NCBI GenBank assembly: GCA_944389895.1
Contig: CALXOA010000118.1
Coordinates: forward strand, 1-64,000
From: an uncultured Victivallis sp.
Lineage (GTDB): Bacteria; Verrucomicrobiota; Lentisphaeria; Victivallales; Victivallaceae
Direction of reading: 5' to 3'
DNA length: 64,000 nt
The notes under the pieces were generated by a model that did no database searches, was not told where the DNA came from, and worked only from the letters and a program-made list of their open reading frames with translations. Position numbers and translations under genes: made by a program. Below are positions 22,993-44,753 of the stretch, in pieces. The stretch's first letter is position 1, and each line of letters opens with the position of its first letter.

Positions 22993-23068
22993 GCGCTCAT
23001 AGCTCAGTTGGTAGAGCAAGTGACTCTTAATCACTGGGTCCTGGGTTCGAGTCCCCGTGAGCGCACCA
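22993..23068 (+). tRNA. tRNA-Lys (anticodon CTT), copy 1
   Basis: 76 bases. The acceptor stem GCGCTCA pairs with TGAGCGC, then A and an encoded CCA. The D arm carries AGCTCAGTTGGTAGAGC, the anticodon loop CTCTTAA gives CTT, and the T arm contains GGTTCGAGTCC. It reads AAG lysine codons. A second, identical gene follows 50 bases downstream. Confidence 0.96.
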
Positions 23069-23086
23069 TTTTTTTGAGAATGAAGC

Positions 23087-23114
23087 CGGCCGCATAAGCG
23101 CGGCCGATTTTATT
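23087..23114 (+). terminator. Hairpin between the two tRNA-Lys genes
   Basis: CGGCCGC (23087-23093) pairs with GCGGCCG (23100-23106) around a 6-base loop, followed by ATTTTATT. It could end the first tRNA transcript or act as a processing signal. Confidence 0.6.
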
Positions 23115-23118
23115 ACAG

Positions 23119-23194
23119 GCGCTCATAGCTCAGTTGGTAGAGCAAGTGACTCTTAATCACTGGGTCCTGGGTTCGAGTCCCCGTGAGCGCACCA
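23119..23194 (+). tRNA. tRNA-Lys (anticodon CTT), copy 2
   Basis: Base-for-base identical to the copy at 22993-23068, including the encoded CCA, while the flanking bases differ. This is a tandem duplication of the gene. Transcription is probably from the same promoter, with the terminator at 23210-23237 ending the unit. Confidence 0.96.
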
Positions 23195-24983: not shown

Positions 24984-25619
24984 TCACTCTGCCTGACGCA
25001 ACGGTTCCCGACACCTGACAACGGAATAGATCGTTTGATCCAGCAGATATTCTCTTCTCTTCAGAAGCTCCTGCAGTTCCGCGGTGGAGTTTAGCACCAG
25101 ATTGTCCTTCAGCTTCACGGTCGTGCCGACAGGAGTCCAGCCGCCGCCGTTTTCCGGAGCGGTTCCAAAGGTGACGAAACGCAACTTGAAGCCATCGCCG
25201 TCCGGAGTCAGCTGCAGGAGAAAGAAGAAACGACCGAGCATCCAGACCGCGGCACTGTTGCGCTCCGCCTCAAGGAGCATATCCTCCACCGCAACCGCAA
25301 CGGAGAGAAAGTATTCGTCTCCGATCCGGGTGAACATCCCGTCCAAGGGAACCCATTGACCATGGAAACTGCGGTCCGGATTCTTCGAAGTCTGAATGAT
25401 CTCGATCCGTACCGCCATCCCGGATCTGCTGTTCCCGGAAATTTTGATCCGGTAACTATCCGATCCGGTTGTGCAACTCCAGTCACCGATGAACTCCCGG
25501 GGCGAAATCGCCGCCGCCTCCTCCCAGTACGGAGCCAGGGACGCCGTCACGGAACAGCCAGTCAGAACTACCGCCGTCGCAACGGCGCAGAACAGAAGAA
25601 CAAGTCGCCTGCTATCCAT
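24984..25619 (-). CDS. Lipoprotein of unknown function
   Basis: 211 residues, not recognised. Signal peptide LVLLFCAVATAVVLTGC carries a lipobox (LTGC), so it is a predicted lipoprotein. The mature part is beta-rich (FIGDWSCTTGSDSYRIKISGN, GQWVPLDGMFTRIGDEYFLSVAVAVEDM), suggesting a lipocalin-like or small barrel domain. GGGAGG precedes ATG 25619, preferred over an in-frame codon 36 bases upstream. The next upstream gene, 25703-26329, also encodes a lipoprotein, on the same strand. Confidence 0.78.
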   Translation of the reverse strand: MDSRRLVLLFCAVATAVVLTGCSVTASLAPYWEEAAAISPREFIGDWSCTTGSDSYRIKISGNSRSGMAVRIEIIQTSKNPDRSFHGQWVPLDGMFTRIGDEYFLSVAVAVEDMLLEAERNSAAVWMLGRFFFLLQLTPDGDGFKLRFVTFGTAPENGGGWTPVGTTVKLKDNLVLNSTAELQELLKRREYLLDQTIYSVVRCREPLRQAE

Positions 25620-25702
25620 GTGATGCACCTCCCATCCATTCACTCCCAATACCATGATCCGGAAACGGCAGACTGTTCACAGATACCCGGGCAGTCGCGC
25701 AT

Positions 25703-26329
25703 TCAATATACTTTCCCCCCGAGCTCCCTGTACAATGCGAACGGGCGACATGCCTCCTCCCGGAGGATGGGACCGGTCACCCGGATGCCGCGTTTCTCCA
25801 GATTCCGCACCCAGTCCGCACCTTTATCCCCCTCATCAAAACCGATCGACTCCGCATCCTCCCGGGAAGCGCCGTAAATCACCCCTTCCACGCCGCTCCA
25901 CGGAGTGGCACCGTAACACATCGCACAGGGTTCGCAACTGGTGACCAGAATACACCCCTTGAGTTCATAGGTGTTCCGGAGATGTTGCGCGTGGGAAAAC
26001 GCCGTCATCTCCGCATGAGCCCACGACTGATTGGCCGGGACCACGCAATTGACTCCGACCGCCACGAGCCGGTCAGTCGCAGCATCGAAAATCGCCGCGC
26101 CGAAGGGGCCTCCGGTTCCGTTGCTCACATTCCGACAGGCCAGCGCAATCACAAAGCGGATCTTCGCCTCGTCCCCCGGGTAAGTCTGGTTCCGATTCCG
26201 CCGTTCGATCTGCCGCAGCCACGCCGGCAGTTCGATCGAGGGAGTCAAAGTCTCAGAAGAGCAGCAGCCTCCGGAAAAAAACATCATTCCCAGAAGAGGA
26301 AGCACCGTCTGCAATACGACTTTCTTCAT
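25703..26329 (-). CDS. Predicted lipoprotein nucleoside/guanine-deaminase-like enzyme
   Basis: 208 residues. The catalytic domain is of the cytidine/deoxycytidylate deaminase superfamily, closest in look to guanine deaminase and TadA: GGPFGAAIFDAATDRLVAVGVN, HAEMTA (zinc ligand His105, proton-shuttle Glu107) and CEPCAMCYGA (zinc ligands Cys135 and Cys138). The odd part is the N-terminus: MKKVVLQTVLPLLGMMFFSGGCC is a lipoprotein signal with Cys22 as the lipidation site, placing the enzyme outside the cytoplasm. GGAGG six bases upstream supports ATG 26329. It could salvage nucleobases in the periplasm or act on a non-nucleotide amine. Confidence 0.85.
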   Translation of the reverse strand: MKKVVLQTVLPLLGMMFFSGGCCSSETLTPSIELPAWLRQIERRNRNQTYPGDEAKIRFVIALACRNVSNGTGGPFGAAIFDAATDRLVAVGVNCVVPANQSWAHAEMTAFSHAQHLRNTYELKGCILVTSCEPCAMCYGATPWSGVEGVIYGASREDAESIGFDEGDKGADWVRNLEKRGIRVTGPILREEACRPFALYRELGGKVY

Positions 26330-26405
26330 CCCAATCCTCCTTTCCGCCCTTTCAGGACATCGTAACACCGAAACGGCGGAACTGCCGCCGGACGATTCCA
26401 TTTTC

Positions 26406-27659
26406 TCATTTCACATTCAACAGTTCTCCCCAGTTCGTCGTGTACCCCGGAGAGAGCAGCTCGCGTCTCATCCGCCAGGGTTTCCGGATCCCCTCCCCCA
26501 TAAGGAAAATGGTACCGCGCCCGAACTTCGCATTCAGAAGATCAACGACCCGGTACAATTCGGACGCCTCCCCCTGCTGTGACGCAGAAAAGAGATCCTG
26601 CTGTCGATCCAGCGACGATTCCAGCCCGAAGAAGACAACTCCGGACTTCTTGTAGCGCCGCCCTGCAATGAACATTTTCCTGAGTTCCGGCTTGACGGCG
26701 GTCATCATCTTTCCGGTATCGTCTGTCGGCTCAGGAAAAACGATCGTGCCGCAACTCATTCCGCCCTCCCGCCTGACCGGACCATATTCCGGATACATCT
26801 GAAAATAGACATTGACGCCGGCCGCCAGCAGCCTTTCCCGACGCAGTTTTTCGGCAGCTCCGGCAGTGTAGGCGGCAATCGATTCACAAAGCTCGTCGAA
26901 ATCCACCACCGGATATCCGAAGGATCGGGAGCACGAGATGCTCCTGGAGGGCTCCTCCGCCGGATTTCCCTCGATGCAGGAAATCCCCCGCAACTCCAGA
27001 ATGGTCCGTCCGAGGCTGACGCTGAACTTCTTCTGCATTGCGGAAACATCCCGGCACGAAAGCTGCCAGGCGGTACGGATGCCGAGGCGTTCCAGCTTCG
27101 GTGCAAGCCGATGCCCGATCCCCCACACCTCCGATACCGGAAGTTGATCCAGTACCGGATGCGGATCTTCCGGCATGACGAAGACGCCGTCCGGCTCTTT
27201 CTTGCCGATATGATTGGCGATTTTTGCCAGAGTCCTGGTCGCCGCGAAACCGATACCGCAGGGAATCCCGATCTGTTTCAGGAGCGTTCGGCGGATTTTC
27301 CGCCCGAACTCAAAATAGTCCGCTCCGGCGGGAAGCTCCACTCGAATGAAGGCCTCATCGATGGAATACTGCTCCACGTCGGGCGTGAAATCCCGGAGGA
27401 TGGCGATCACCCGCCGGGAAATGTCACCATACAGCGCATAGTTGCTGGATTTCAGAATCAACCCACGGTCGGCCATCAGCGGTTTCAGCTGAAAAAATGG
27501 CGTTCCCATCGGAATGCCGAGCGCCTTGAACTCGGCGGAACGACTGATCACGCAACCGTCGTTGTTGGAGAGAACGGCAACCGGCTTCCCTTCGAGTGTC
27601 GGATCGAAAATCCGTTCGCACGACACATAGAAGTTGTTACCGTCCACCAATCCGATCAT
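26406..27659 (-). CDS. umuC: Y-family translesion DNA polymerase (Pol V catalytic subunit UmuC)
   Basis: 417 residues. Family start IGLVDGNNFYVSCERIFDP holds the first catalytic Asp. NNDGCVISRSAEFKALGI, YSIDEAFIRVE (catalytic Asp-Glu) and IGFAATRTLAKIANHIGKK follow, then the little-finger domain and a DUF4113-like C-terminus (GMSCGTIVFPEPTD... ending LSPGYTTNWGELL), which is characteristic of UmuC over DinB. It copies damaged DNA with UmuD'. Its start overlaps the flavin-reductase gene by 4 bases, and umuD is the first gene of the group. Confidence 0.94.
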   Translation of the reverse strand: MIGLVDGNNFYVSCERIFDPTLEGKPVAVLSNNDGCVISRSAEFKALGIPMGTPFFQLKPLMADRGLILKSSNYALYGDISRRVIAILRDFTPDVEQYSIDEAFIRVELPAGADYFEFGRKIRRTLLKQIGIPCGIGFAATRTLAKIANHIGKKEPDGVFVMPEDPHPVLDQLPVSEVWGIGHRLAPKLERLGIRTAWQLSCRDVSAMQKKFSVSLGRTILELRGISCIEGNPAEEPSRSISCSRSFGYPVVDFDELCESIAAYTAGAAEKLRRERLLAAGVNVYFQMYPEYGPVRREGGMSCGTIVFPEPTDDTGKMMTAVKPELRKMFIAGRRYKKSGVVFFGLESSLDRQQDLFSASQQGEASELYRVVDLLNAKFGRGTIFLMGEGIRKPWRMRRELLSPGYTTNWGELLNVK

Positions 27660-28216
27660 ATGCGTTTTTTTCCATCCTGGAATGCAGTACCGACGACTTC
27701 GCCGAGCTTCAGGTACCGGTGGTTGACCGGATCGAACGTGATCGCCTCAACCCGGGCCGGATCGATCTTCCCATCCGGAGTCAGAACCCGCTCTGCGGCG
27801 CTGACATTGACGATCTCTCCAACGGTACAGCCGGTGGAGGAATCGTAACTGACCAACCGGCACTCCAGAGTCACAGGCAGCTCCTCGATGACCGGCGCAT
27901 CGACAAATTCAGCCCGGCCGGCATGAAACCCCGCCTTCTCCAGTTTTCCGGGCTCCCGCCGCCCGGAAACAATGCCGACATAGTCGCAGGCGACGACGTG
28001 GGAGGCGTCTCCGACACTGACGGTAAAACACTTTCTGGCAAGCAGATTTTCCGCAGTTTTATGACCGGGATCGATACAGACGCCGATCTGGCCGGTATCG
28101 TGAATCCCGCCCCAGGCGGCATTCATTGCATTGGGAGATCCATCCTCATTGTACGTACCGATGATCAATACCGGCATCGGATAGAGCCAGGTCTGTGCAC
28201 CGAAATTCTTACGCAT
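27656..28216 (-). CDS. Flavin reductase-like (flavoredoxin-type) FMN-binding protein
   Basis: 186 residues of the split-barrel flavin reductase family. WLYPMPVLIIGTYNEDGSPNAMNAAW is the flavin-binding start; later DYVGIVSGRREPGKLEKAGF and EELPVTLECRLVSY match flavoredoxins. Such proteins bind FMN and carry or transfer electrons in anaerobes. Unusually it lies between umuD and umuC, overlapping both (8 and 4 bases), so all three are one translation-coupled operon. Its partner in DNA-damage tolerance, if any, is unknown. Confidence 0.88.
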   Translation of the reverse strand: MRKNFGAQTWLYPMPVLIIGTYNEDGSPNAMNAAWGGIHDTGQIGVCIDPGHKTAENLLARKCFTVSVGDASHVVACDYVGIVSGRREPGKLEKAGFHAGRAEFVDAPVIEELPVTLECRLVSYDSSTGCTVGEIVNVSAAERVLTPDGKIDPARVEAITFDPVNHRYLKLGEVVGTAFQDGKKRI

Positions 28217-28685
28217 TTGATCGTCCTTTCCCGATGTTGTATTCCACGAACCGGTGGATGACCGCCGTCACCACACCGAAAATTTTGAGTTCCATCCCCT
28301 CCGAGAACCTGATCGACCGGTAATTCGGGTTGGCGGCCTCGAGGAAATACGTCTCACCATCCGAACGCAGATATTTGACGGTAAATTCATTGTCCACACA
28401 GGCGATGACAATTGCGCCCGGCAATGCTTCAAGACTGCGGTCAACGACAAGAATATCCCCCGGCCGGATTCCGGCACCGAGCATGGAATCTCCCGCCGCC
28501 CGGACAAAAAAAGTCGCAGCCGGCTTCCGGACCAGAAGCTCATTCAGATCCAGAGGAGACTCCGTATACTGCTCGGCCGGAGAGGGAAATCCACAGACGG
28601 CCGGCGACGACATCAGAGGCGGCCTTTCGTCTGCGCCCCGCCGTCGAATCCCGTGTTTTTCCGCGTCGTTCAGATCAGGTGACAT
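28209..28685 (-). CDS. umuD: UmuD-like self-cleaving Pol V subunit
   Basis: 158 residues of the S24 LexA/UmuD family without a DNA-binding helix-turn-helix. The cleavage site is AVCGFPSPAE, a Cys31-Gly32 bond as in E. coli UmuD. The catalytic Ser67 is in GDSMLGAGIRPGD and Lys104 in FTVKYL; their 37-residue spacing equals that of the E. coli protein. RecA-stimulated cleavage would give UmuD', the active Pol V partner. The N-terminal arm is about 7 residues longer than E. coli's. No E. coli-type LexA box is visible upstream, but LexA motifs differ between phyla. Confidence 0.93.
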   Translation of the reverse strand: MSPDLNDAEKHGIRRRGADERPPLMSSPAVCGFPSPAEQYTESPLDLNELLVRKPAATFFVRAAGDSMLGAGIRPGDILVVDRSLEALPGAIVIACVDNEFTVKYLRSDGETYFLEAANPNYRSIRFSEGMELKIFGVVTAVIHRFVEYNIGKGRSNA

Positions 28686-31077: not shown

Positions 31078-32871
31078 ATGAACAATTCGAGAATTACAGA
31101 ACTCTTCCGCCGGGTTCACGCCCCGGTCGTCACCGGTCGCACCGGAATTTACGCGGGGCGTGACCTGATGATGCTTCCCGATGGAGAAATCCGCCATTAC
31201 GGGGCACATTTCTGCCGTGATGGAATGGGAAGAAATACGGCATTGCCGGTAGTTCGTCGCAGTTTCGATTATGGAATCAGCTGGATCGAGGAACCCGTGA
31301 CCGGCCGGACTCCCGGAGCTTCGGTGAGAAGCCCCTATTCGGGAGATTATCTGACGCTCCGTCGGAAAATGAAGCAGCCTGAAAACTGGCATGAGTTCTG
31401 GGCCCACGGTTTGTTTCCGCTGCCCGGCGATGTTCCGGAAGGAGTCTATGTCTTCCGGTCGACTCATCCGGACAGCGGCTGGGAAATGGAACAAATCTCG
31501 GCGGATCCCATTCACATTCAACGTCAGCCGCTGCCGCTCCGGAACCGGCGGAGATGGCTCCTCGGTTCCGAGCAATGGATCGGGAAAACCCTGCACCCGG
31601 TGGTTCTTCTCTCCGATGACGACGGCCGCAGCTGGCGGAAAATCGTACTTCCGCCGCCGCCGGTTCACACAGTCGCATGGCCGCACAAGGGGCCGCGCTG
31701 GCTCCAGTGCGGCTGCGAACCGGTGATCGCCGAATATCCGAATGGGCGCCTCCACATGTTGTTGCGCACCTCGACCGATCGCCACTGGCAATGCTTCTCA
31801 GACGACGGCGGAGAAACCTGGAGCGCTCAGGAACCCTCTCCGTTCTACGCGGTCGCGACAATGCCGAATCTGCTGACGCTCTCCGACGGTCGGCTGCTGG
31901 CAATCTGGAACAATACCACGCCGTTGCCGGAACTCGATCATGACCTTCAGCCGGAATTGGACGAGGATGCCCGCAACGGAGTGTGGGAGGATGTGTTCAC
32001 CAACCGCGATGCGCTGCACGCCGCAATCTCCGAAGATCTCGGGAAAAGCTGGATCGGCTTCCGGGAACTTCTGCTTAATCCCGTCCGGAACAACAACGAT
32101 TTCCGGACGATCGGCGGATCCTGGGCGTTGAAAGACAAGAGCATCCACCAGAATCAGGCGCTGGAGTTGCCGGAGAACAAGGTGCTGGTCGCCCTGGGGC
32201 AGCATCCGTGCTGCGAAGCGCTGCTCCTGTTCGATCTCGATTTTCTTTATGAAACGGAACGACGGGAGGATTTCAGAAGCGGTCTCACCAACTGGTCGGT
32301 GCACCAGTACCTGCGGAGCCTCTCCGGCGGTTTCCGTTACGCCGGGCACTGCGCCTGGAACCGGCGTCCCGGCGCCTCGCTGGTCCCGGCACCGGATGGT
32401 TCCCCGCGGGAGATGTTGCAGATCGCACGCCATCCGGATCCCCGACTCCTCTATGAAAAGGAGGGGGCCGTCTGGAATTTCCCCGCAAGTCGCCGGGGTC
32501 GGCTGAACTTGCGGCTGATTCTGATGCCCGGATCCAGCGGAATGCGTATTACCCTGACCGACCGCTGGTTCAATCCGGTCGATCCGGTGGTACACGAACT
32601 CTCTCCCTTTGCCCTCGAACTGGATTCCGCAGGACGGCTCGAGTGCATTCCGCTGGTGACGCCCGGAGTCGAAAGCGAAGTCGAAATCTCATACGATCAG
32701 GATGCCGGGATTCTGCGCTTCCGATCGGGAGAACGAGCCGGCGAAGTCCCCCTGCGGCACCCCGTAGAAGGCGCGATCAGTTATCTGCATCTGCAAAGCC
32801 TGGCCGAAGGAAGCGACCCCTTCGGCGTACTGATCGCTGCAGTCGAACTGCATCACGAAACGAAACCATGA
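31078..32871 (+). CDS. Sialidase-like (BNR/Asp-box) protein, cytoplasmic
   Basis: 597 residues. Four Asp-box motifs (S-x-D-x-G-x-S/T-W) are visible at residues 62-69, 179-186, 241-248 and 318-325, as in six-bladed sialidase propellers. The C-terminal about 200 residues form a beta-sandwich-like region (MPGSSGMRITLTDRW...). There is no signal peptide, so it should act inside the cell on imported sugars. The full set of sialidase catalytic residues is not obvious, so it may act on another glycan. A perfect promoter lies upstream, and its stop overlaps the start of the regulator gene. Confidence 0.78.
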   Translation: MNNSRITELFRRVHAPVVTGRTGIYAGRDLMMLPDGEIRHYGAHFCRDGMGRNTALPVVRRSFDYGISWIEEPVTGRTPGASVRSPYSGDYLTLRRKMKQPENWHEFWAHGLFPLPGDVPEGVYVFRSTHPDSGWEMEQISADPIHIQRQPLPLRNRRRWLLGSEQWIGKTLHPVVLLSDDDGRSWRKIVLPPPPVHTVAWPHKGPRWLQCGCEPVIAEYPNGRLHMLLRTSTDRHWQCFSDDGGETWSAQEPSPFYAVATMPNLLTLSDGRLLAIWNNTTPLPELDHDLQPELDEDARNGVWEDVFTNRDALHAAISEDLGKSWIGFRELLLNPVRNNNDFRTIGGSWALKDKSIHQNQALELPENKVLVALGQHPCCEALLLFDLDFLYETERREDFRSGLTNWSVHQYLRSLSGGFRYAGHCAWNRRPGASLVPAPDGSPREMLQIARHPDPRLLYEKEGAVWNFPASRRGRLNLRLILMPGSSGMRITLTDRWFNPVDPVVHELSPFALELDSAGRLECIPLVTPGVESEVEISYDQDAGILRFRSGERAGEVPLRHPVEGAISYLHLQSLAEGSDPFGVLIAAVELHHETKP

Positions 32872-33932
32872 GGATCCGTTCCATGGAAGAAAAACTGGTC
32901 AGGGAACCTCTCTACGAAAAATTGAAGAAGCGCCTGCTCGTAACCATCGAAACCGAGAACCTGCGCATGCTCCCCAACGAACGGGAACTCATGGCCCGGT
33001 TCGGCGTTTCCCGCAATACCCTGCGGCGGTCGATTTTCGAACTGACCAAGGAGAACATCCTCCAACCGGTCCAGGGGATCGGTACGATCGTCTATCCGGT
33101 GCCGGAGATCGTGGAGAACAGTCGGATTCTGATCGTCTGCGACCGGGAGATGACGTCGTTTCAGCAGGAAGTGTTCAATCTGCTGCTCTTCATGCTCAAC
33201 AACAGCCGCCTCAACACCATCGTGCTGATGCTGGACAAGGAGAATGTCGATGTCAACCGGTTTGACGCCATGCTCAAAAGCTGTGATGGGGTGGTAATCG
33301 ACCAGCTCTGCAGCTACTCTCCGGTCATTCTCGAACGGATCCGGAAAACCGGGAAGAAGATGGTCTGCCTGCGCTGGCGGCCCGATCCTCCCGGAATCCC
33401 GTTCGTCGCCGAAAATGTCTGTGAGGGATTCTACCGGCTGGCCCGCCACCTGATCGAACTCGGCCACACCCGGATCGCCTACATCGGCAACTCCGAGGAT
33501 CGCCGGCGGATGCCGGGGTTGAAAAAGGCGTTTCAGGAAAACGGGCTGGAACTTGATCCCTGCTTGACGTTCCATCTGGAGAAAGGCTATCGCGAGGAGG
33601 GGTATCAAGCCACCGACGCCCTGTTGAAAACCGGTCGCCGCTTTACCGCCGTCATTGCCCACAGCGACATCTGCGCACTCGGAGTCGAAGAGCGATTGCT
33701 GATTGCCGGATACAGGATTCCGGAGGAAATTTCCGTTACCGGCTTCGACAACCTGCAGGAGAGTGCAAGTTATCCCATCCCCCTGACCACCTGCTGCGGA
33801 GATCCCGAACAGATGATCCACGAGGCCATCGCCTATCTTTTCAGTACCCGCAATTCCGGAATGACGCTGGAAAAGGTGGTCGATCCACGCCTGATCATTC
33901 GAAAATCGACGGCACAAGTCCCGGAACGATAA
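32868..33932 (+). CDS. GntR-type winged-helix regulator with LacI-like sugar-binding domain
   Basis: 354 residues. The GntR winged helix covers about residues 10-80: LYEKLKKRLLVTIETENLRM, LPNERELMARFGVSRNTLRRS, GIGTIVYP. The rest is a periplasmic-binding-protein-like effector domain: CDGVVIDQLC, ARHLIELGHTRIAYIGNSEDRRR, IAHSDICALGVEERLLIAGYRIPEEISVTGFDN. That architecture is typical of sugar-sensing repressors. The start ATG 32868 overlaps the sialidase-like stop (ATGA); ATG 32883 is an alternative. It is followed by a prepilin gene after 27 bases and then a giant glycosidase gene. Confidence 0.9.
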   Translation: MRIRSMEEKLVREPLYEKLKKRLLVTIETENLRMLPNERELMARFGVSRNTLRRSIFELTKENILQPVQGIGTIVYPVPEIVENSRILIVCDREMTSFQQEVFNLLLFMLNNSRLNTIVLMLDKENVDVNRFDAMLKSCDGVVIDQLCSYSPVILERIRKTGKKMVCLRWRPDPPGIPFVAENVCEGFYRLARHLIELGHTRIAYIGNSEDRRRMPGLKKAFQENGLELDPCLTFHLEKGYREEGYQATDALLKTGRRFTAVIAHSDICALGVEERLLIAGYRIPEEISVTGFDNLQESASYPIPLTTCCGDPEQMIHEAIAYLFSTRNSGMTLEKVVDPRLIIRKSTAQVPER

Positions 33933-33959
33933 CAACAGAGTTACAGAAAGGAAGAGAAC

Positions 33960-34598
33960 ATGAGAAGGAACAGGGCTTTTACATTGATCGAATTGCTCGT
34001 TGTTATTGCGATCATCGCCATTCTGGCGGCAATGTTGCTGCCGGCACTGAACAAGGCACGTGAAAAAGGCAGGGAAGTCGCCTGCGCCAGCAACCTCAGA
34101 CAGATCGGAACAGGATATCAGCTCTATCTCGATACCCACGACGGTTTCTTTTACAAGGGAAGCAGTTCCGATGGTGATGAGACCTGGATGAAACCGTTGT
34201 GGGGCTACAAAATCGGTACCAACGAAAAAAACGGTACGATTTACGTAGACCGCAAACTCATGCTGAATCCATCCGCAGGCAGCGGCGCGATCGGCTGTGC
34301 CTCCCAGGCTCCTTACGGCATCTCCTGGGCATATGCTCTGAACTACTACGTTTTTGCAGAAGTGTCCCCCCGGATGGTTCATTCCCGGATTCCGCAAGCC
34401 TCCCAGACCCTCTGGATCGCGGAAAACGGTTTCTGGATCGTCAATTCCGACGGAGCCGGCTGGTCACAGGAGAGCCGACACCGGCTTATTCATTCCGGGC
34501 GCAGCAACTTTCTGTATGTCGATGGACACGTCGGCTCCCGCCCCGGGGGAGAATATCGCGGTTACGCCATTCCATTCTGGCGCCCCAAACAGATCTGA
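33960..34598 (+). CDS. Prepilin-like protein with DGHV motif
   Basis: 212 residues. A very short leader (MRRNRA) precedes [20 protein letters not shown] and [11 protein letters not shown]. The C-terminal [15 protein letters not shown] matches the H-x9-DG motif of planctomycete-like pseudopilins. It would be processed by a prepilin peptidase and placed in the envelope. AAGGAAG precedes ATG 33960. It lies between a sugar-type regulator and a secreted glycosidase, the same order as at 43017-44754, suggesting a role in handling the same glycan. Confidence 0.88.
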
Positions 34599-34639
34599 CC
34601 GGTATTCTGACCACTTAAATCTCTGGAGAAAAGATTGAA

Positions 34640-36142
34640 ATGAGACTAATTTCAGCCCTGTGTGCGGTACTGGCCGCGTTCTCTGTATCGGCAGATTACA
34701 GGTATGAATTTTCAAATGAAAAAAATCCGCTTGAGAAACTGGTGGCGGCCCCTTTCTGTCTCAGGCAGATCGGTGACAAGATCACCTGGGCGAACGGTGT
34801 CTTGAAGAGTTCCTCCACCAACCTGCTTCTGTATGCCCCGGAAGAGGTCACCGACGGCCGCGTCACCCTCAGGGCGCGTGACTGTTATCAAAGTACTATT
34901 ACCCTTGTCGCCCGGGCAAACAAGGAGTTCAACTCCTATTACGCACTGGAAGTTTCATCCTCGCAAAAGAAGGCGTTTTTCTATCGCACCATCTACGGGG
35001 AACCCACCAAGAAGCAGGAGATCCCGTACGGCGGCGAACGGGAGTTCACTCTGATGCTCGACTTCGACGGGAAAACCGTCACCGGCTGGATCAACGGCAG
35101 CAAAGCGGGGGAGATGCCCGATGACGGCAGACTGAAATCCGGGATGGCCGGCATTCGCGGCGGCTTCTGGACCAATGCCGAACTCAAAAGCCTCGAATAC
35201 TCCGCCGCAATCGCGAAGGCGGAGACGGTCGCGGAGCAGAAAACGCCCGGGAAAACGACAGCGGATGCTTCCGACACCGGTTTCCGTTATGAGTTCACGA
35301 CCGAAGTCAATCCGCTCCGGGAACTTTCCATTGCGTCCACCTCTCTCCCATTGGTCGGCAGCAAAATCAACTGGGCGGATGGCGTGCTGAAAAGTTCCGA
35401 CTGTCACCTGATTCTGTATGCGCCGAAAGAGTTCTCCCGCGGTCGGGTCAGCCTCAAGGCACGTGACCGTTACGAAAGTACCATCGCCCTGATCGCCCGG
35501 GCGAACAAGGACTTCAGCGCCTTCTATGCGCTGGAGGTCTGCCCCTCGCTGAAGAAAGCCTCCTTCTACCGTTTCATCTACGGGGAACCCACGAAGCGGC
35601 AGGAACTCCCTTACGGCGGGGGACGGGAGTTCACCCTGACGCTCGATTTCGACGGAAAAACCATCGTCGCAAGGATCAACGGCAGGAAGGTGCATGAAAT
35701 TCCCGATGACGGCAGACTGAAATCCGGGATGGCCGGCATTCGCGGCGGCTTCTGGACCAATGCCGAACTCAAGAACTTTGAATATTCCGCCGCAATTCCC
35801 GAGGAAGAGACACAGGCGTTGAATCAACCGCCCATGAAACCGGCGGCGAACGTCAAAAAACTCGACCTGAAAAAGATCCGCGACTGGGATCTGGCGAAAG
35901 CATATCGCACTGCGAACGGCACCCGGCTCACCGTAAGCCTGAATCAAGTCTGGAGGTTCCGCCCGGTTTCCGATCAGCGGATTCCCGCCCTCGCCCCGGA
36001 ATCGGAATGGGGGTATTTCGTCGTACCCGGTTACTGGGCAAAGGGAGCCATCAACAACTACATGCGAACGGACGACGGCACCGCAGTGACCGAATGGCGC
36101 GGAATCCCGTTCACAAAAAAGTGGTGTAACATCATGGTATAA
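34640..36142 (+). CDS. Giant GH2-like secreted protein, N-terminal part (frameshifted gene)
   Basis: 500 residues ending at a frameshift. A signal peptide (MRLISALCAVLAAFSVSA) is followed by two tandem modules (residues 20-191 and 215-386), beta-sandwich-like, possibly carbohydrate-binding. Both contain KSGMAGIRGGFWTNAELK. The start of a GH2 sugar-binding domain comes next (LNQVWRFRPV...VVPGYW). The frame stops at 36140, but the expected SWYKRSCNIPEEWRNSRVEL continues in the next frame from about 36120. Dropping one A from the A6 run at 36115-36120 joins both parts into one protein of about 1779 residues (34640-39980). As written, the gene is broken. Confidence 0.85.
   Translation: MRLISALCAVLAAFSVSADYRYEFSNEKNPLEKLVAAPFCLRQIGDKITWANGVLKSSSTNLLLYAPEEVTDGRVTLRARDCYQSTITLVARANKEFNSYYALEVSSSQKKAFFYRTIYGEPTKKQEIPYGGEREFTLMLDFDGKTVTGWINGSKAGEMPDDGRLKSGMAGIRGGFWTNAELKSLEYSAAIAKAETVAEQKTPGKTTADASDTGFRYEFTTEVNPLRELSIASTSLPLVGSKINWADGVLKSSDCHLILYAPKEFSRGRVSLKARDRYESTIALIARANKDFSAFYALEVCPSLKKASFYRFIYGEPTKRQELPYGGGREFTLTLDFDGKTIVARINGRKVHEIPDDGRLKSGMAGIRGGFWTNAELKNFEYSAAIPEEETQALNQPPMKPAANVKKLDLKKIRDWDLAKAYRTANGTRLTVSLNQVWRFRPVSDQRIPALAPESEWGYFVVPGYWAKGAINNYMRTDDGTAVTEWRGIPFTKKWCNIMV
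35117..35187 (+). repeat. 71-base perfect direct repeat, copy 1
   Basis: Identical to 35702-35772, offset 585 bases (195 codons), within the two tandem modules of the GH2-like gene. It encodes the PDDGRLKSGMAG to WTNAEL stretch. Confidence 0.95.
35702..35772 (+). repeat. 71-base perfect direct repeat, copy 2
   Basis: Second copy of 35117-35187. Neighbouring parts of the two modules differ at many positions, so this block has probably been homogenised by recombination. Confidence 0.95.
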
Positions 36143-36182
36143 AAGAAGTTGCAATATTCCGGAAGAGTGGCGTAACAGCAGA

Positions 36183-39100
36183 GTGGAACTGATTATCGAA
36201 GATCTCTGTGGAACGGCGGAGATCTACCTTGGTAAAAAAAAAATTGCCGAAAAGCGTGATCCCGCCATCGGCGTAGCCCGGATCGACGTCTCCGGAGAGT
36301 TGCGGTACGGCGAAGAGAATCTGCTGCTGATCCGCAACACCGGGGAGCTCAATTCGCCTGCCGGACTCGGCAACACCCGGCTGGAGGTTTCCCCCGGTAC
36401 GAATTTCGGCGATGTCGGTATCGCAACGAGCGTCTCCGACAAGACGTTTACTCTCTCCTTTAACGGCGGCTCGGCCCCCTCCGGCAGTATGATCGACATC
36501 GTAATCAAGGATCGGAAAGGCGGAGAGCTGTTCCGGGAACGGCACCCCTTTGCCGAACGGATCACCTGCAGATGGACGGCGCCGGTTCTCTGGTCGCCGG
36601 AGACACCGGAACTCTATTCCCTGGAACTGGCGCTCTCCACGCCGGACGGAAAAATCGCGGACCGCTCCGTCACCCGATTCGGCTTCCGCGAATTTGCCGC
36701 CCGCGACGGTCAATTCTTTCTGAATGGCAAACCGATCATTCTGAAGGCCGAAACCTCCATTCCCAACAAAGGCAACTGGTGGGGACTCGACTATCTGGTC
36801 GACCGCAGGTTTATTGAACCTCTTTTCACAACCTACAAAAAATTAAACCTGAACTGCACGGTTCTCAGCGGACCGCCTTCGGAAGAAACCCTTTCCCTGG
36901 CCGATGAAATGGGCCTCATGTTGCTGGTTAACGGCAGAATGCTCACCCACACGGAACTCGACAGGGACACAGAAAACGCGTTGAAGAAGCTGGAATCCTC
37001 GCTGCGGGAGATGGCGGGGAATCCGGTCTATTTCCGACACCCTTCCCTGATCGGCTTCCGGATCGACGTCTGGTATGGCTACAACGCCGGCTGTACCAAC
37101 CCGAATTACGTCGGCTTGAAACAGGGAGATCCGAATCAGAACGGGATTCCGGCCCTGCGCAGTGAACGCCTCAACCGGATGGCAGCCCTCTATCGGAAAT
37201 ACCTCCCCGGGCTGGAGTGTTTCACCGGCGGTTCCGGAGCGGTCGGCAACGTCTACGGGACCCATATCTACCACACCTGGGGCGCACCATCCACCGAGCT
37301 GCGCGCTTTCTTCGAGGAGTGGAACCGGAAACGGGAGCTGCCCATCTTCGCCGGAGAGACCTATCTTCCTTACATCGGCAGCTTCTTCGACCTTGAGAAC
37401 TTCCACGGCGGCGGCGTTCCGTACATCACCGAAAACGCCGCACGCATCCTCGGCGATGCCGCCTACAACTACCGTACCACGATGAGTCCGCGCCCGTTCC
37501 ACGAACGCGGACGCGCCGGCTGGTTCTGGAGCACGATCGAGAAAAAGGAAGCCGGCACATACGGTTTCTCCGTCGATGCCCCCGCCGCGGTGACGGCGAA
37601 ATACATCGATGAGATCATGACCGGATGGCGTTTTCACCGCCTGACCGGTTACGGCAATTTCGATTACACTGAAAGCTCGTTCGCCATGCAGCGGATCGCC
37701 CCCGAAACGCTGCCCGTCTCAAGCGACTACAGCGACTTCAGTTTCAAGCCGGAAGGTTTTGACAACGGCAATGCCCGCCGTTCCTGCTTCGATCCGCGTG
37801 TACCGGGCTACGATCTGCGTCCGACGCTGCTTCAGGCCCCCTTCGCACATGCGATGGCCGACGTGAGCGCCGCCATTCTGGACAGAGAGGAGGACCCTCT
37901 TCTGCAGAATCACTCCGGTTACAGCGGTGAAACGCTGAAAAAGAGCGTGATGCTTTTCAACGATTCCCCGAAACAGGTCCGATTCCAACTTATGGCCACG
38001 CTTTGCGATACCCAGGGGCGTGTCCTCCCGCTCGGCGAGAGAAGCGTCGAAGCGGCTCCATTTGAACACAAACTCATTCCCGTCTCCATTCCGCTGCCCG
38101 CCACCGGCGACCGTTCGGAGTGGGTATTCCGTGCTCTGCTGAAGGGGGAGGAAAAGATCTTCCGGCTGGAATTTCCGATCCAGGTGTTCGCACGGCCCGT
38201 TGAACTAAAACTCACCTCTCCGGTTCACATCTGGGACCCCGAAGGAACAGTGACGACCCGTCTGATGAAACGTCTGCCTCTGAAACGGCTTGAAAACCTG
38301 GATGCGTTACCCTCCTCGGGAATCCTGATCGTCGGTCGCGGCGCGTTGTCCCGACTCACCCGTATGCCGGACTGGAATGCGGCGGCGGCAAACGGCCTGA
38401 ACATCCTCTTTCTGGAGCAGCATCCGACCGCCTCGCCGGAGCTGATGAAAACCCGGACCCGCCGAACCTACATCAATGCGCCGGCTCATCCGGTGTTCGA
38501 GGGGCTCGGAGACGCCGACTTCGCTTTCTGGCAGGACAGCTTCTCCATCGCCCCCGCAAAAGTCAGGGATGGAGCTGGGATCAACTGGTCCGACTGGGGG
38601 AACCGCAACATGGTGGCAGCCTATGCTTTCCGGCGTCCGCAGCACGGCGGGTATCTCAGCCTTCTGGTCAGCGGGTTCGACCTTTTTCAAACACCGCTGC
38701 TGGAGCACCGTACCGGGAAAGGAGGCTGGATCGCGTCGCAGCTGGAAATCACCGATCGGCTCGGCAGCGATCCGGCGGCAACCCGGTTGTTCGACAATCT
38801 GCTCCGGTATCTGGATCGGCCGGCACGGCCGGCGAAAGTGCTGTTCTTCGGCAGTGAGAACGGGAAAAAGCTGGTCGACCGTTTCGGACTTGACTGTACG
38901 GCGGAAAACGATCTCTCCGGCAACCGTCTGAAACAGGCGGACCTTCTGCTCGTCGCCGATCCGGATTGGGAGGAATTGAAGCGTTACCGCATGGAACTCA
39001 ATGACTTCGTCTATTTCGGAGGCCGGGTGCTCTACTGGCATACCGGGAAAACGTTCGATCCGGGCTGGCTGCCGTTCACGATGGAACTCGCCGAAACCAC

Positions 39101-39980
39101 AGCCTCCCGCGCGGCAATCGCCGGGAAGGCGGACGGCGTCTGGCGCAACGGATTCGGCAACAGCGAACTCTACTGGCGTGAAAAACGGAACGTTCCCGCT
39201 TTCCAGAATGTTCCGCCGCACTTCGATGCAACGGCTCCGGCGGTTCTGGTACGCGGGCGGTTCGGTTCCGGGGAGTGGATTTTCACGACTTTATCACCGG
39301 ATCTTTTCGGTGCGACCGCCGCAACCGGCAAAACGGTCCGGCTGCTGTCGGCCCTGTTTGCCTCGCTCGGGGTGGAAATTGCCGATGCGGCATCCCCGTT
39401 TGTGTCGACAGCCGATATTGCGGAACTGGATCTGAGTGAACAGAAGTGGGAGTTCGCCATCGACGAGAAAGATCTCGGAGTGAAGGAAGAGTGGCAATCC
39501 GGCAAGGGGAACGCCCGCTGGCTGAAGGGGCTGATCGCCGACGGGATCGAAGTCCGCGTCGGGCAATCTTTTGAATCCTTCCTGCGTTACGACTACAACG
39601 GCTATGCATGGTACCGCCTGACATTCGACGTTCCGGAGAATCTCTCTGCCGCACCTCAGCTCTATTTCACGGCGGGCGCGATCGACGATACCGACGAAGT
39701 CTGGCTCAACGGCGTCAAAATCGGTTCCACCGGTAAGGACGTGCCGAACTACTGGGAGGCGAAACGGAATTACCCGATTCCACAGGGGCTGCTTAAGAAG
39801 AGCGGCAACCTGCTCGTAGTCCGGGTGTTCGACGAGAAGGGGAACGGTGGAATCGTCCAGGGACCGGTGGCGCTCTCCGAGCGGAAGCTGGAAGGCTCCC
39901 CACGCTTGTGGCAGACGCCATGGCCCGAGGGTGCTCGACACGATTATGAATACAAAGCCGATCTGGTCCGTATGTATTGA
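36183..39980 (+). CDS. Giant GH2-like secreted protein, C-terminal part (frameshifted gene)
   Basis: 1265 residues from GTG 36183; the homologous frame is open back to about 36120 and belongs to the gene starting at 34640. Domains in order: a GH2-type jelly roll (VELIIEDLCGTAEIYLGKKKI), an immunoglobulin-like sandwich, and a TIM barrel (DGQFFLNGKPIILKAE onward). A Rossmann-like region near residue 690 follows (ILIVGRGALSRL), then a final jelly roll (YAWYRLTFDVPEN...DDTDEVWLNGVKIGS). At the usual GH2 acid/base site the sequence reads RHPSLIGFRIDVWYGYNAG without the NE pair, while ELPIFAGETYLP may hold the nucleophile Glu. Activity is therefore uncertain. The M14 peptidase gene follows after 16 bases. 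Confidence 0.85.
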   Translation: MELIIEDLCGTAEIYLGKKKIAEKRDPAIGVARIDVSGELRYGEENLLLIRNTGELNSPAGLGNTRLEVSPGTNFGDVGIATSVSDKTFTLSFNGGSAPSGSMIDIVIKDRKGGELFRERHPFAERITCRWTAPVLWSPETPELYSLELALSTPDGKIADRSVTRFGFREFAARDGQFFLNGKPIILKAETSIPNKGNWWGLDYLVDRRFIEPLFTTYKKLNLNCTVLSGPPSEETLSLADEMGLMLLVNGRMLTHTELDRDTENALKKLESSLREMAGNPVYFRHPSLIGFRIDVWYGYNAGCTNPNYVGLKQGDPNQNGIPALRSERLNRMAALYRKYLPGLECFTGGSGAVGNVYGTHIYHTWGAPSTELRAFFEEWNRKRELPIFAGETYLPYIGSFFDLENFHGGGVPYITENAARILGDAAYNYRTTMSPRPFHERGRAGWFWSTIEKKEAGTYGFSVDAPAAVTAKYIDEIMTGWRFHRLTGYGNFDYTESSFAMQRIAPETLPVSSDYSDFSFKPEGFDNGNARRSCFDPRVPGYDLRPTLLQAPFAHAMADVSAAILDREEDPLLQNHSGYSGETLKKSVMLFNDSPKQVRFQLMATLCDTQGRVLPLGERSVEAAPFEHKLIPVSIPLPATGDRSEWVFRALLKGEEKIFRLEFPIQVFARPVELKLTSPVHIWDPEGTVTTRLMKRLPLKRLENLDALPSSGILIVGRGALSRLTRMPDWNAAAANGLNILFLEQHPTASPELMKTRTRRTYINAPAHPVFEGLGDADFAFWQDSFSIAPAKVRDGAGINWSDWGNRNMVAAYAFRRPQHGGYLSLLVSGFDLFQTPLLEHRTGKGGWIASQLEITDRLGSDPAATRLFDNLLRYLDRPARPAKVLFFGSENGKKLVDRFGLDCTAENDLSGNRLKQADLLLVADPDWEELKRYRMELNDFVYFGGRVLYWHTGKTFDPGWLPFTMELAETTASRAAIAGKADGVWRNGFGNSELYWREKRNVPAFQNVPPHFDATAPAVLVRGRFGSGEWIFTTLSPDLFGATAATGKTVRLLSALFASLGVEIADAASPFVSTADIAELDLSEQKWEFAIDEKDLGVKEEWQSGKGNARWLKGLIADGIEVRVGQSFESFLRYDYNGYAWYRLTFDVPENLSAAPQLYFTAGAIDDTDEVWLNGVKIGSTGKDVPNYWEAKRNYPIPQGLLKKSGNLLVVRVFDEKGNGGIVQGPVALSERKLEGSPRLWQTPWPEGARHDYEYKADLVRMY

Positions 39981-39996
39981 ATGGAAGGAGAAAAAA

Positions 39997-41646
39997 ATGT
40001 TGCTCAAAAACCTGCCGCCGATCCCGGACGCCTTTCTGCCCTATGAAGAACTTGAAGCTTATGTGGAAAAGCTCGCAGCCGCGGCTCCGGAACTGGTGCA
40101 GGTCAGTGACATCGGGCTCTCCCGGGGGAAACGGCGGATCCTGCTGCTTTCCGTCACGAACTTCGCAACCGGAGCACCGGAACGGAAACCGGCATTCCTG
40201 ATTCAGGCGCATATCCATTGTCACGAACTCGGAGGCACCATCGCCGCTCTCTACACGGTGCGGCAGCTGATTCTCGACCATGTCGATGGAGGGATTCTCG
40301 ACCGGGTGGTATTCCAGATTCTACCGCGTCTCAATCCGGATGGTGCGGAAGAGGTGATTCGCCACTCCGGCTACATCCGCAGTCGCTGGGACCAGACCGG
40401 AGAACTGCCGAATACGCTTGTTCAGGAGGATGTCGACGGCGACGGGCTGATCCTCTCCATGCGGATCGAGACCCCCGACGGCGACATGGTACGTGATTCG
40501 CGCGACCCGCGCTGTCTGGTTCCGCGTCGCGCCGACTCCACCGGTCCTTTCTACCGGATGCTGCCGGAGGGAACCATTCACAACTGGGATGGCGTCACCC
40601 GGGAGGGATTCCGATTCCACGGGCGGATGCTGGACTGGAATCGAAACTGGGGCGCCTTCTGGTCCCCCTTCGAAGCCGGAGCGGGCGACTATCCCATGAG
40701 TGAACCGGAAATACGGTACCACGCCGATTTCCTCGTCAACAACCCCAATTTTTTCGGCGGCATCGCCTATCATAACGGCTGGGGAGCGATTCTGCGCGCA
40801 CCCGACCAGCCCGGAGACGACTCGTTCTCCGCAGCGGATCTGCGCTGCTACCGGAAACTTGCGGAGATGGGGGAACAACTGACCGGATACCCGGCATTTG
40901 CCGGCTGCAAATTCCACTCCCGGTCGGAACTTGATACACACCGCGCCGGAAACTTCACAGACTGGCTGTTCTTCCATCTCGGATTGTTCGGCTTCGTCAT
41001 CGAACTCGGTACCGTCGAAACATCATCCGGGCTCGATACCCGGACAATCCTCAACGACTCCCTCAGAAGTGAAGAGGAGTACTGTGCGCCGCGCGAGGTC
41101 CTTGCCGATGACGACCGTCATCCGGAACGGCGGCGCGCCTACCACCCGTGGCGTCCCTTCCTGCACCCGCAACTCGGTCCGGTAGAAATCGGCGGGGTCG
41201 ATATTCCCGTTTTCGCAGTCCCTGCACCCGACTATCTGCGCAAGGTATGCGAGCGTGTCCACGCATTCACACTCCACCTCGCCTCCAAGTGCCCTCGCCT
41301 GGTGGTTTCCGCACTGGAAGTCGTCGAGATCGGCGACCTGAAGCGGGTCAGGCTTCGGCTCCACAACCGCGGGGAATTTCCGACCAACATCAGCGAAGCC
41401 GGCGCCCGGCTTCCGGCACGCCGGAAACCGTTGATCCGCATCCATCCACAACCCGGCGTGGAAATCATCTCCCTGGAAAAGGACCGCGAACTCAACCACT
41501 TCGCCCCCTGGGAATCCCGCACGCTCGAATGGTTCCTCGCCGGAACTCCGAACACCGGAACCCGGCTCGCGGAGATCGAACTGGAAGCCTTCTCCGCCGG
41601 AAGCCTGACCCTCCCGGTGACGGTTTCTCCGGAAAAGAGGCCGTAA
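39997..41646 (+). CDS. M14-family zinc carboxypeptidase, no signal peptide
   Basis: 549 residues. Zinc ligands are His74 and Glu77 (AHIHCHELGG) and His259 (YHNGWGAI); the catalytic Glu336 is in FVIELGT. The substrate-binding motifs NPDG (residues 113-116) and DWNRNWG (213-219) are intact, so an active peptidase or amidase is likely. Roughly the last 130 residues form a beta-sandwich-like extension (LEVVEIGDLKRVRLRLHNRGEFPTN). It lacks a signal peptide, so it probably trims imported peptides or glycopeptides in the cytoplasm. AAGGAG precedes ATG 39997. It follows the GH2-like gene closely, suggesting a shared glycoprotein-type substrate. Confidence 0.88.
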   Translation: MLLKNLPPIPDAFLPYEELEAYVEKLAAAAPELVQVSDIGLSRGKRRILLLSVTNFATGAPERKPAFLIQAHIHCHELGGTIAALYTVRQLILDHVDGGILDRVVFQILPRLNPDGAEEVIRHSGYIRSRWDQTGELPNTLVQEDVDGDGLILSMRIETPDGDMVRDSRDPRCLVPRRADSTGPFYRMLPEGTIHNWDGVTREGFRFHGRMLDWNRNWGAFWSPFEAGAGDYPMSEPEIRYHADFLVNNPNFFGGIAYHNGWGAILRAPDQPGDDSFSAADLRCYRKLAEMGEQLTGYPAFAGCKFHSRSELDTHRAGNFTDWLFFHLGLFGFVIELGTVETSSGLDTRTILNDSLRSEEEYCAPREVLADDDRHPERRRAYHPWRPFLHPQLGPVEIGGVDIPVFAVPAPDYLRKVCERVHAFTLHLASKCPRLVVSALEVVEIGDLKRVRLRLHNRGEFPTNISEAGARLPARRKPLIRIHPQPGVEIISLEKDRELNHFAPWESRTLEWFLAGTPNTGTRLAEIELEAFSAGSLTLPVTVSPEKRP

Positions 41647-41754
41647 ATTCTCCGTACGGAATGAGCAGACTCTCCGACAGAAAACCTCTCCGGGATTCCG
41701 ATCGGAGCTCTTCCGGTCTGCTCGTTCCGTTACGCCGCGCGGAAAAGTGTTTTT

Positions 41755-42597
41755 TCAGAGCCCGGCGGCGAGGAACGCCACCCGGCAGGCCCGTTTGTAT
41801 GCTTCGGCAAGATATTCCGCCGTCGAGAGCTTCCCGTAACAGTCATTCTCGTGACGTCCCGGTTTGCTGAAACGGTTCAACTCAAACGTGAGCGGTCCCT
41901 CATAACCGCTTCGTCTGAGCCGGGAAGCGATTTTTCCCCAGTCGGCAACTCCATCGAAAGGCAGCAGATGGAGGTCGTCATACCAGGTAATCCTGCCGTC
42001 GAAATCCCGGATTCCGAGATTGTCGTTGAGATGGGTTCCGACCAGATGCTTCCCGTACGATGCGAGCATGTCCCGGTTCTGGTTGTAACACATCTCATGA
42101 CCGGAATCCCAGCAGAAGCCGACCGAGCGGTAACTTTCAGCAAGCTGCATCAGCATTGCCAGATACTCTTCGCCCTCGGTGTTTTCGAACGCCACCGTCA
42201 CCCCGAGCCGCTCCGCTTCCCGGACCACCTTCTCGAAATTTCCGACGCCCCGGCTGTTCGGCGAGTGCTCGTTGAAGCCGATAACGGCATGCGTCACCAT
42301 GATCGGCACCTCATGCTCGGAACAGCTGCGCAGACAGTTCATCAGCTCCTCAACCGCGGCCGCGGCAGCATCCTCATCCTCCTTCCACAGGGCGGCGGCA
42401 TGACCGAACGGCGCATGGATCGATTGATAAAGCAGATGGTACTCTCCGGCAAGTTGCCGCCACTTCCCGATCGGAGCTTCGGGAAACCACCCGGTGAAAA
42501 AGCCGTCGAATCCGGTTTCCCCGATCCATTTGATCTGCTCTTCCGGAGTTCCGCCGAACTCCCCGCACAACCCGAGACAAAGTCTTCTCCGATACAT
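41755..42597 (-). CDS. Sugar phosphate isomerase/epimerase family (xylose isomerase-like TIM barrel)
   Basis: 280 residues. AP-endonuclease-2/xylose-isomerase-like barrel with metal-site residues in VAFENTEGEE, CWDSGHEMCY, VGTHLNDNLG and LTFELNRF. Such proteins isomerise or epimerise keto sugars or inositols, usually with Mn2+, in the cytoplasm. GGAGGAAACG precedes ATG 42597, preferred over the in-frame codon 18 bases upstream. It is convergent with the M14 gene and divergent from the second GntR-type regulator, so it may be a target of that regulator. Confidence 0.85.
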   Translation of the reverse strand: MYRRRLCLGLCGEFGGTPEEQIKWIGETGFDGFFTGWFPEAPIGKWRQLAGEYHLLYQSIHAPFGHAAALWKEDEDAAAAAVEELMNCLRSCSEHEVPIMVTHAVIGFNEHSPNSRGVGNFEKVVREAERLGVTVAFENTEGEEYLAMLMQLAESYRSVGFCWDSGHEMCYNQNRDMLASYGKHLVGTHLNDNLGIRDFDGRITWYDDLHLLPFDGVADWGKIASRLRRSGYEGPLTFELNRFSKPGRHENDCYGKLSTAEYLAEAYKRACRVAFLAAGL

Positions 42598-43016
42598 CGT
42601 TTCCTCCGATACCACTCAACGATCCCACGCCTGTCACAGGGGGATTTCACCCGGTGCCGGCCGCCATCCGCTGCAGACAACCGGGGCTGCCCTCCCCTTC
42701 CGGGAAACGTTCTCCCCGCCTCCCGGAAGGATTGTTCCGGAAAATTGCTCCGTTCCGGCACTCGACCGGAGCCCTGCCCCGGCCGGACCGGATCTTTTCC
42801 GGCCTCCGACTTTTCCCTGCTGTGTCAATATAATATGATTTTCAAACAAATCCACCCGGTATTCCAGATACTTTCGCGGGAATCCCGGCCGGCCGTCAAC
42901 TTGAACTCCGGCCCTGCGGATTAATTTCTCAAAAAAAATCAGTTCGGCTATTGATTTTTGAAAAAGTATCCTTATACTAATATAAGAAGATAAAAACTAA
43001 ACCAAGAAGAAAAATC
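42598..43016. other. Divergent intergenic region upstream of the second GntR-type regulator
   Basis: About 420 bases. The left part (42600-42830) is GC-rich with no gene I can support. The right part is AT-rich and carries the promoter and palindrome at 42951-42978. Confidence 0.6.
42951..42978 (+). promoter_or_regulatory. Promoter of the second GntR-type regulator with overlapping palindrome
   Basis: TTGATT (42951-42956) and TATACT (42973-42978) with 16-base spacing. AGTAT (42965-42969) and ATACT (42974-42978) form a palindrome around CCTT that overlaps the -10 box. This is a likely operator for self-repression by the regulator beginning at 43017. Confidence 0.55.
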
Positions 43017-44051
43017 ATGATTGTCGCATCGGATATCGTGAAACAACTCCGGCTGGACATTATCAATCAGGAGTTCGGGCTCAACGGGAAACTGCCGACC
43101 CGGGAAGAGTTCAGCCGGCAATACGGCGCCAGCAAGGCGACCGTTCAGAAGGCGCTGGCGGAACTGGAGGCGGAGGGGTTCATCATTTCCCGCGGGACAC
43201 TCGGCACGTTCGTCAACCCGAACTCCCCAAACCACACGGACATTGCGCTGCTGCTGCCGGTTCGTGAGGAACAGTTGACCGTCAGGGATGAACTTTTCAA
43301 CCTGGTCAATCAGGAACATCGCAATCTGGAGAAACATACCGGCAAGAATCTGCGGTACTTTTACATCGATCGCGAACAACGGATCCAGGACGATTTCGAG
43401 AAAGTGGCTGAAGAGGCAAACCGCACACGTCTCAGTGGAGTCATCCTGCCGTTTCCTCCGCAGAGCTGGATGCTCGAGCCGTTTATCCGCAACAACATCC
43501 CGGTGGCGGTTCTGACCGATGAAAATATCAGCGGAGCCTCCACGGTCTGGGTGGATTACTCCGATTTCTTCAAAAAAGCCCTGCTTTACTGCCGTAGACA
43601 GAACTGCAGACGCCCGGCATTGCTCGCAAATTTCACATTGCCGTATCACCACATCGAAGACTATTTCAGACTCGGGAAGGAAGCCGGTTTTGAGCTTGAA
43701 TCCCGACTTGTGCAGGGCCAGTCCGAGGTGTTCGGACTGCCGTGGCTCCGGCATACTCTCGACTCCTTTTTCTACGGGCCGGAACCGGCCGACACGGTCA
43801 TTATCGGCGACGAGGCATTCCTGCCGGACACCCTCAAATATCTGTTCGAACACGACAGGATTCCGGGGAAAGACATTCAGCTGATCTGCGAACGGACGTT
43901 TCCTCACGATACCTGTACCGGATTCCCGGTCAAATTCATCGGATTCGACCTGTATGAGATCATCGATACCTGCCTGCGGGCGCTGGAGGCGCTGCGAGCG
44001 GGCGGGAAACCGATGAAGGATTTTGCACTGATCGCCGCAATCGAAAGTTGA
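43017..44051 (+). CDS. GntR-type winged-helix regulator with LacI-like sugar-binding domain
   Basis: 344 residues. N-terminal winged helix: [51 protein letters not shown]. The C-terminal effector domain of the LacI/PBP1 fold is more diverged ([49 protein letters not shown]). It probably represses its own operon until a sugar binds. It is followed after 20 bases by a prepilin gene, then a DUF4838 gene, repeating the 32868-39980 order. Confidence 0.88.
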
Positions 44052-44071
44052 AACATGGAGGGAGGACAAAC

Positions 44072-44749: not shown

Positions 44750-44753
44750 ACCG

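Follow-up and report, generated by a model that had tools for sequence, protein, structure and literature searches.

What raises a question at this locus is a nucleoside deaminase homologue that begins like a lipoprotein, in a superfamily whose members normally work in the cytoplasm: is it exported, and what would it act upon? The gene lies in the window, i.e., the whole stretch of DNA that was analyzed (64,000 nucleotides from an uncultured Victivallis sp.; Table 1). The initial annotation had described a leader with the lipobox FSGGC ahead of a complete zinc site, HAE ... CEPCAMC, and the current analysis confirms the frame, the start, and both motifs. The favored answer, with a probability of roughly 0.58, is that the gene codes for a lipid-anchored, extracytoplasmic guanine deaminase of the type represented by NE0047 from Nitrosomonas europaea; its export, lipidation, location, and substrate are predictions from sequence and model.

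Table 1. Features of the deaminase locus and the adjoining genes, in window coordinates
Feature	Position	Strand	Remarks
Coding sequence, leadered deaminase	25703..26329	minus	208 aa plus stop; ATG at 26329
Shine-Dalgarno site AAAGGAGGA	26335..26343	minus	5' of the deaminase ATG
Lipoprotein-type leader, residues 1-22	26264..26329	minus	MKK n-region, hydrophobic core, lipobox SGG/C22
Guanine-deaminase-like domain, residues 32-208	25706..26236	minus	phmmer, alignment, model, structure comparison
HAE, residues 105-107 (zinc ligand His, proton-shuttle Glu)	26009..26017	minus	Invariant in 35/35 rows
CEPCAMC, residues 132-138 (zinc ligands Cys135, Cys138)	25916..25936	minus	Both Cys invariant in 35/35 rows
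FDEG, residues 164-167	25829..25840	minus	Glu166, equivalent of NE0047 Glu143, invariant in 35/35 rows
umuD-like and umuC-like genes, flavin-reductase gene between them	26406-28685	minus	Overlaps of 8 and 4 bases
Second lipoprotein-type gene LLFCAVATAVVLTGC	24984-25655	minus	223 aa from the listed start

The start of the leadered form can be read directly from the sequence. The longest mechanical ORF of this frame starts at 26401 and comprises 232 aa; when all in-frame starts as far as the domain are compared, the ATG at 26329 is the only one with a Shine-Dalgarno match. It is preceded by AAAGGAGGATTGGG and reads gcggAAAGGAGGattggg-ATG, with 7 of 8 bases matching AAGGAGGT, which makes it, in a tie with the homologue L040, the best ribosome site among the ten genes compared. 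Translation from downstream of the leader, for example near residue 33, had been named initially as the case that would speak against export. A scan of the in-frame codons found no start codon at or near this residue; past the leader, the TTG at residue 28 is without a ribosome site, and the GTG at residue 60 has just a 4-base ribosome match and lies within helix 53-69 of the predicted model. The same region holds an inverted repeat on the minus strand (26342-26381, with 12-base arms, 92% complementary, and 16 bases between them), placed between the umuC stop and the deaminase ribosome site; the folding z for the 80-base stretch around it is -2.09.

Residues 1-22 (MKKVVLQTVLPLLGMMFFSGGC) follow the plan of a lipoprotein signal, with FSGGC at residues 18-22 and Cys22 as the lipobox cysteine. 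Leaders were called by pattern rules, a strict one modeled on the PROSITE PS51257 pattern and a relaxed one; both match this leader at Cys22. The usual lipobox is L-[AS]-[GA]-C, so that S-G-G-C, weak at position -3, falls short of the ideal, yet it fits the strict pattern. The +2 residue after the cut is Cys, not Asp, and signal peptidase II (LspA) is encoded in the same genome (PF01252, E 9.3e-40). The domain is preceded by 31 residues, including the lipobox and the linker CCSSETLTPS of about ten residues. The leader exceeds chance: among 20,000 dinucleotide-preserving shuffles of the 183 bases preceding the domain, 25 gave a lipobox leader and 2 gave a lipobox leader with a ribosome site, and the corresponding counts for 20,000 random window sites, real genes included, were 60 and 32.

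The remainder of the protein matches the Pfam domain dCMP_cyt_deam_1 (E 3.6e-17, 62.6 bits), and phmmer aligns residues 32-208 with the NE0047 structure 2g84 (E 4.6e-37). NE0047 (PDB entries 2g84, 4hrw, 7c3s, and others) shares the whole catalytic domain and the zinc site, with 41 to 42% identity in the structural alignment and a Z of about 29. The predicted model has a mean pLDDT of 89.8, with blocks of residues 1-30 at 51 to 61, includes an NE0047-like N-terminal helix and C-terminal tail, and fits the NE0047 chains with Z of 29.0 to 29.2 and an rmsd of 1.4 to 1.6 Å over 175 to 177 residues. These chains, from their residue 1 or 2, align with the window protein from residue 26 or 27 on, i.e., NE0047 has no leader; the usual, although not strictly defining, state of such enzymes is leaderless and cytoplasmic, in contrast to the lipobox leader found here. 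The zinc ligands and Glu107 are invariant in the 35 aligned rows, as are Asn94 and Glu166, the equivalents of NE0047 Asn66 and Glu143 (printed alignment numbering +2, fixed via the E143D chain 7c3s), and the final Tyr208 is nearly so.

Other characterized deaminases are more distant. The Bacillus subtilis GuaD (1wkq, 1tiy), a 164-residue chain described in the entry title as domain-swapped, has the deaminase domain in common (E 7e-26 by sequence), and VIA-align covers merely 120 to 121 residues of it. Arabidopsis GSDA (7dbf, 7dc9) shows the same fold and zinc-deaminase domain, with 32 to 33% identity, Z of 22.1 to 22.6, and an alignment that begins only at residue 52. The report on the plant guanosine deaminase describes an enzyme that acts on the nucleoside, in which the water is deprotonated by the catalytic Glu and the C-terminal loop forms a cap over the site (PMC9739398). 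Because NE0047 is the nearest solved relative, the model fits it, and the catalytic residues are invariant, and given the guanosine deaminase paper, a working guanine deaminase is our best guess for the window protein, and guanine, one of the compounds named for activity tests in the initial annotation, is its likely base. TadA has the deaminase fold and the zinc site in common; TadA and its engineered forms reach Z of 20.5 or less against the predicted model, and assignment to TadA was rejected on score (40.5 bits versus the NCBIfam equivalog cut-off of 150), as was assignment to RibD. The separate TadA-like protein of the same genome, at 131.9 bits, is likewise below that cut-off.

A protein search detected one copy of the deaminase in the source genome (94% complete), and the distribution of the gene is patchy: matches were found in 10 of the 78 genomes from the family (E ≤ 1e-25), in 15 of 137 genomes of the order at 1e-40, and in 91 of 387 genomes of the phylum sample at 1e-15. 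The leader survey covered 117 loci and considered every in-frame start that precedes the domain. Sixteen of these form the clade of close relatives (≥55% identity to the query core, a boundary drawn after most leaders were known) and 101 are outside it, representing 98 distinct rows, with identical cores in the pairs L008/L064, L044/L068, and L045/L101. The survey excluded the loci L010-L012 (33 to 38% identical) and the weaker, largely TadA-like L013-L030.

The lipobox leader recurs in the clade. By the relaxed rule it is present in 7 of the 16 members, and by the strict rule in 6 (L001, L003, L006, L039, L040, and L141); L002 is recognized by the relaxed rule alone, which was written after it missed the strict one. 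None of the 101 outside homologues has such a leader by either rule, in line with the initial view that members of the superfamily are normally cytoplasmic; the Fisher value for this comparison, which ignores relatedness, is 2.3e-7. Of three further members, L042 carries the near-lipobox LQSGC, which fails both rules and is excluded from the seven, L043 has an N-terminal hydrophobic anchor, and L004 has a hydrophobic start without a lipobox. The remaining six (L005, L041, L061, L062, L063, and L142) lack a hydrophobic leader according to both rules and to visual inspection, so that orthologues without the signal, named initially as a case that would speak against export, do exist in part of the clade. 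The leaders of the clade diverge in sequence while their kind is kept, and the lipobox carriers span several genera and families: those in the genomes G412, G012, and G202 belong to other genera, G202 being kin by phylum only and encoding a second, more distant copy (42%). The domains of leadered and leaderless sisters are 55 to 72% identical to that of the window. In 6 of the 16, therefore, the same deaminase domain also serves without export, which speaks against the lipoprotein reading. One additional match, G183:C10:31799-32050, with 58% identity over residues 125-208 and two in-frame TGA codons, looks like a remnant of a broken gene.

In the clade tree, which was built without the leaderless L007-L009 (counted as outside), the 16 members are separated as a single group from the 13 outside rows, with support of 100/100. 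The pair L001-L141, both of them lipoproteins, splits off first within it, but the support is weak (81/53 for this pair and 86/81 for the other members). On the best clade tree the lipobox state changes five times, with at least two changes forced by well-supported branches; the 37-row tree, which places L007-L009 unresolved within or next to the clade, likewise gives five changes, at least three of them forced. A single origin of the lipoprotein form, with the seven lipoproteins held together, was rejected at p-AU of 3.2e-7 under the model used, the group and an earlier tree having been known beforehand and most backbone branches being weak. The lipobox label is hardly clustered in either tree, as shuffled labels gave counts as low in 58 of 500 cases on the clade tree and in 32 of 500 on the 37-row tree. 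Since the lipoproteins are not one clade and six members are leaderless, the leader has arrived or vanished repeatedly; the counts do not separate gain from loss, and an ancestral leader followed by losses is a guess.

The umuD-like, flavin-reductase-like, and umuC-like genes lie upstream on the same strand, and the second lipoprotein-type gene, which has no Pfam or NCBIfam match, begins 47 bases downstream. The ORFs of 19 loci were clustered, several of the relatives' flanks being short (contigs of 6 to 10 kb). Some true genes were masked by the filter for the longest ORFs, namely the umuD and flavin reductase of the window and the deaminase itself in four loci; therefore, the four window proteins were searched directly against the flanking loci of 18 relatives. 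None of the four had a match there at E 1e-3, whereas the deaminase was recovered in 18 of 18. Besides the deaminase and its antisense frame, the only family present in more than two loci is pilin-like (by eye); it occurs in four, each of which has a leadered deaminase. Neighbors are shared between the leaderless sisters L061 and L062, and a few other pairs have one gene in common. No neighbor tying the deaminase to purine uptake was found in the clustered loci. Elsewhere in the window, on the plus strand, there are two tandem tRNA-Lys(CTT) genes with equal Rfam scores (22993-23194), and the genes scanned at 31078-46892 include carbohydrate-type ones, with BNR repeats, a 3-keto-disaccharide hydrolase, a GH2-like protein of 1265 aa, and DUF4838.

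Extracellular salvage, as proposed in the initial annotation, is possible on these data, but the few families searched do not reveal a full salvage chain on the outside: the genome search found one nucleobase permease (PF00860), one nucleoside hydrolase (PF01156), leaderless and adjoining a ribokinase-like gene, and no member of PF02872, the nucleotidase family covered. Four further PF00383 matches in the genome are ComEB-like, TadA-like, RibD-like (by eye), and cytidine-deaminase-like (below the cut-off). Because separate TadA-like, ComEB-like, and RibD-like proteins are thus predicted, the window gene is evidently not the sole deaminase of the genome. A mobile origin of the gene was rejected, as the 142 matching plasmid records and the 10 matching phage records are all below 60% identity (47.8% and 36.3%, respectively, for the best ranked).

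According to the favored interpretation, the Sec machinery would export the NE0047-type enzyme from the cytoplasm, and Lgt and LspA would convert it to a lipoprotein cleaved before Cys22, leaving it tethered by the short linker at the outer face of the inner or the outer membrane. There it would bind zinc via His105, Cys135, and Cys138, and Glu107 and Glu166 would drive the hydrolytic loss of the 2-amino group from guanine, or a near analogue, that reaches the envelope, yielding xanthine and ammonia. The benefit could be nitrogen or purine scavenging. A literature search at the level of titles and abstracts, mostly outside subscription journals, found neither a guanine deaminase described as a lipoprotein or as periplasmic nor an extracytoplasmic guanine-to-xanthine step.

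One rival interpretation concerns the substrate. Substrates differ across the deaminase superfamily, the NE0047 structures hold several ligands (including cytidine, 2'-deoxyguanosine, and 8-azaguanine, according to PDB entry titles), and no further extracytoplasmic purine step was seen among the few families searched, all of which would suit an anchored enzyme acting on another guanine-like base, a nucleoside, a pterin, a triazine, or some other aminated heterocycle. Given the invariance of the Asn66 and Glu143 equivalents, the near invariance of the final Tyr, and the clear margin by which a guanine deaminase is the nearest solved relative, we regard such a substrate as rather unlikely. Still less can be said for a secreted or surface effector of the kind seen in the MafB19-type polymorphic toxins, an effector-like role having been one of the initial suggestions. 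The MafB19-deam match of 36.7 bits does exceed its gathering cut-off of 27 bits, and another lipoprotein gene follows directly; however, the match overlaps the better-scoring dCMP_cyt_deam_1, residues 32-208 are NE0047-like, and the downstream lipoprotein has no match in the 18 flanking loci of relatives. The protein is one small stand-alone enzyme domain, with just the leader, a short linker, and an N-terminal helix that belongs to the domain itself ahead of it, and residues 1-56 have no Pfam match at E 0.001, with no delivery or pre-toxin domain. An effector is therefore scarcely credible. An anti-phage role was likewise rejected, as PADLOC gave no match for the window protein at E 0.01; its "anti-phage dCTP deaminase" model matches 8 of 32 aligned proteins weakly (best 1.4e-5), which is taken as reflecting the shared fold.

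The remaining doubts concern the compartment. The leaderless members of the clade and the repeated changes of lipobox state could mean that the window protein is an ordinary cytoplasmic guanine deaminase whose leader is unused or decaying, or is bypassed by a downstream start. Such starts may exist in relatives: between the hydrophobic leader and the domain, L042 has an ATG at residue 46 with AGGAGG (a 6-base ribosome match) and L043 an ATG at residue 40 with GGAGG (5 bases), whereas the leader starts of both have just 4-base matches; L006 has GTGs at residues 35 and 37 with 5-base matches. In the window gene, however, the leader start has the best ribosome site of the ten compared (tied with L040) and the internal starts up to the domain are without a ribosome site, and decay would hardly preserve an n-region, a core, and a lipobox in seven diverged genes, so that a cytoplasmic enzyme appears distinctly unlikely. 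The internal sites of L042 and L043, as candidate second ribosome sites, suggest that an exported and a cytoplasmic form may both be made by some members. Dual localization in part of the clade, with the window gene exported only, is compatible with the lipid-anchored enzyme favored here; as the weak leader starts of L042 and L043 may mean that those leaders are unused, it too seems quite improbable. For the Victivallales-type and related clade as a whole, we tentatively suggest, at somewhat less than even odds, a group of extracytoplasmic lipoprotein guanine deaminases in which the leader behaves like a switch and some members produce both forms from two starts.

An envelope form of the deaminase is likely. 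If active there, it could convert guanine to xanthine and ammonia before uptake, which would shift both what the cell takes up and what it releases to its neighbors or host, xanthine being a precursor of urate. The scatter of the leader among sister proteins is the most interesting part: if true, it would represent a natural case of one enzyme that has switched compartment more than once, in which sisters with and without the leader are similar enough for direct comparison.
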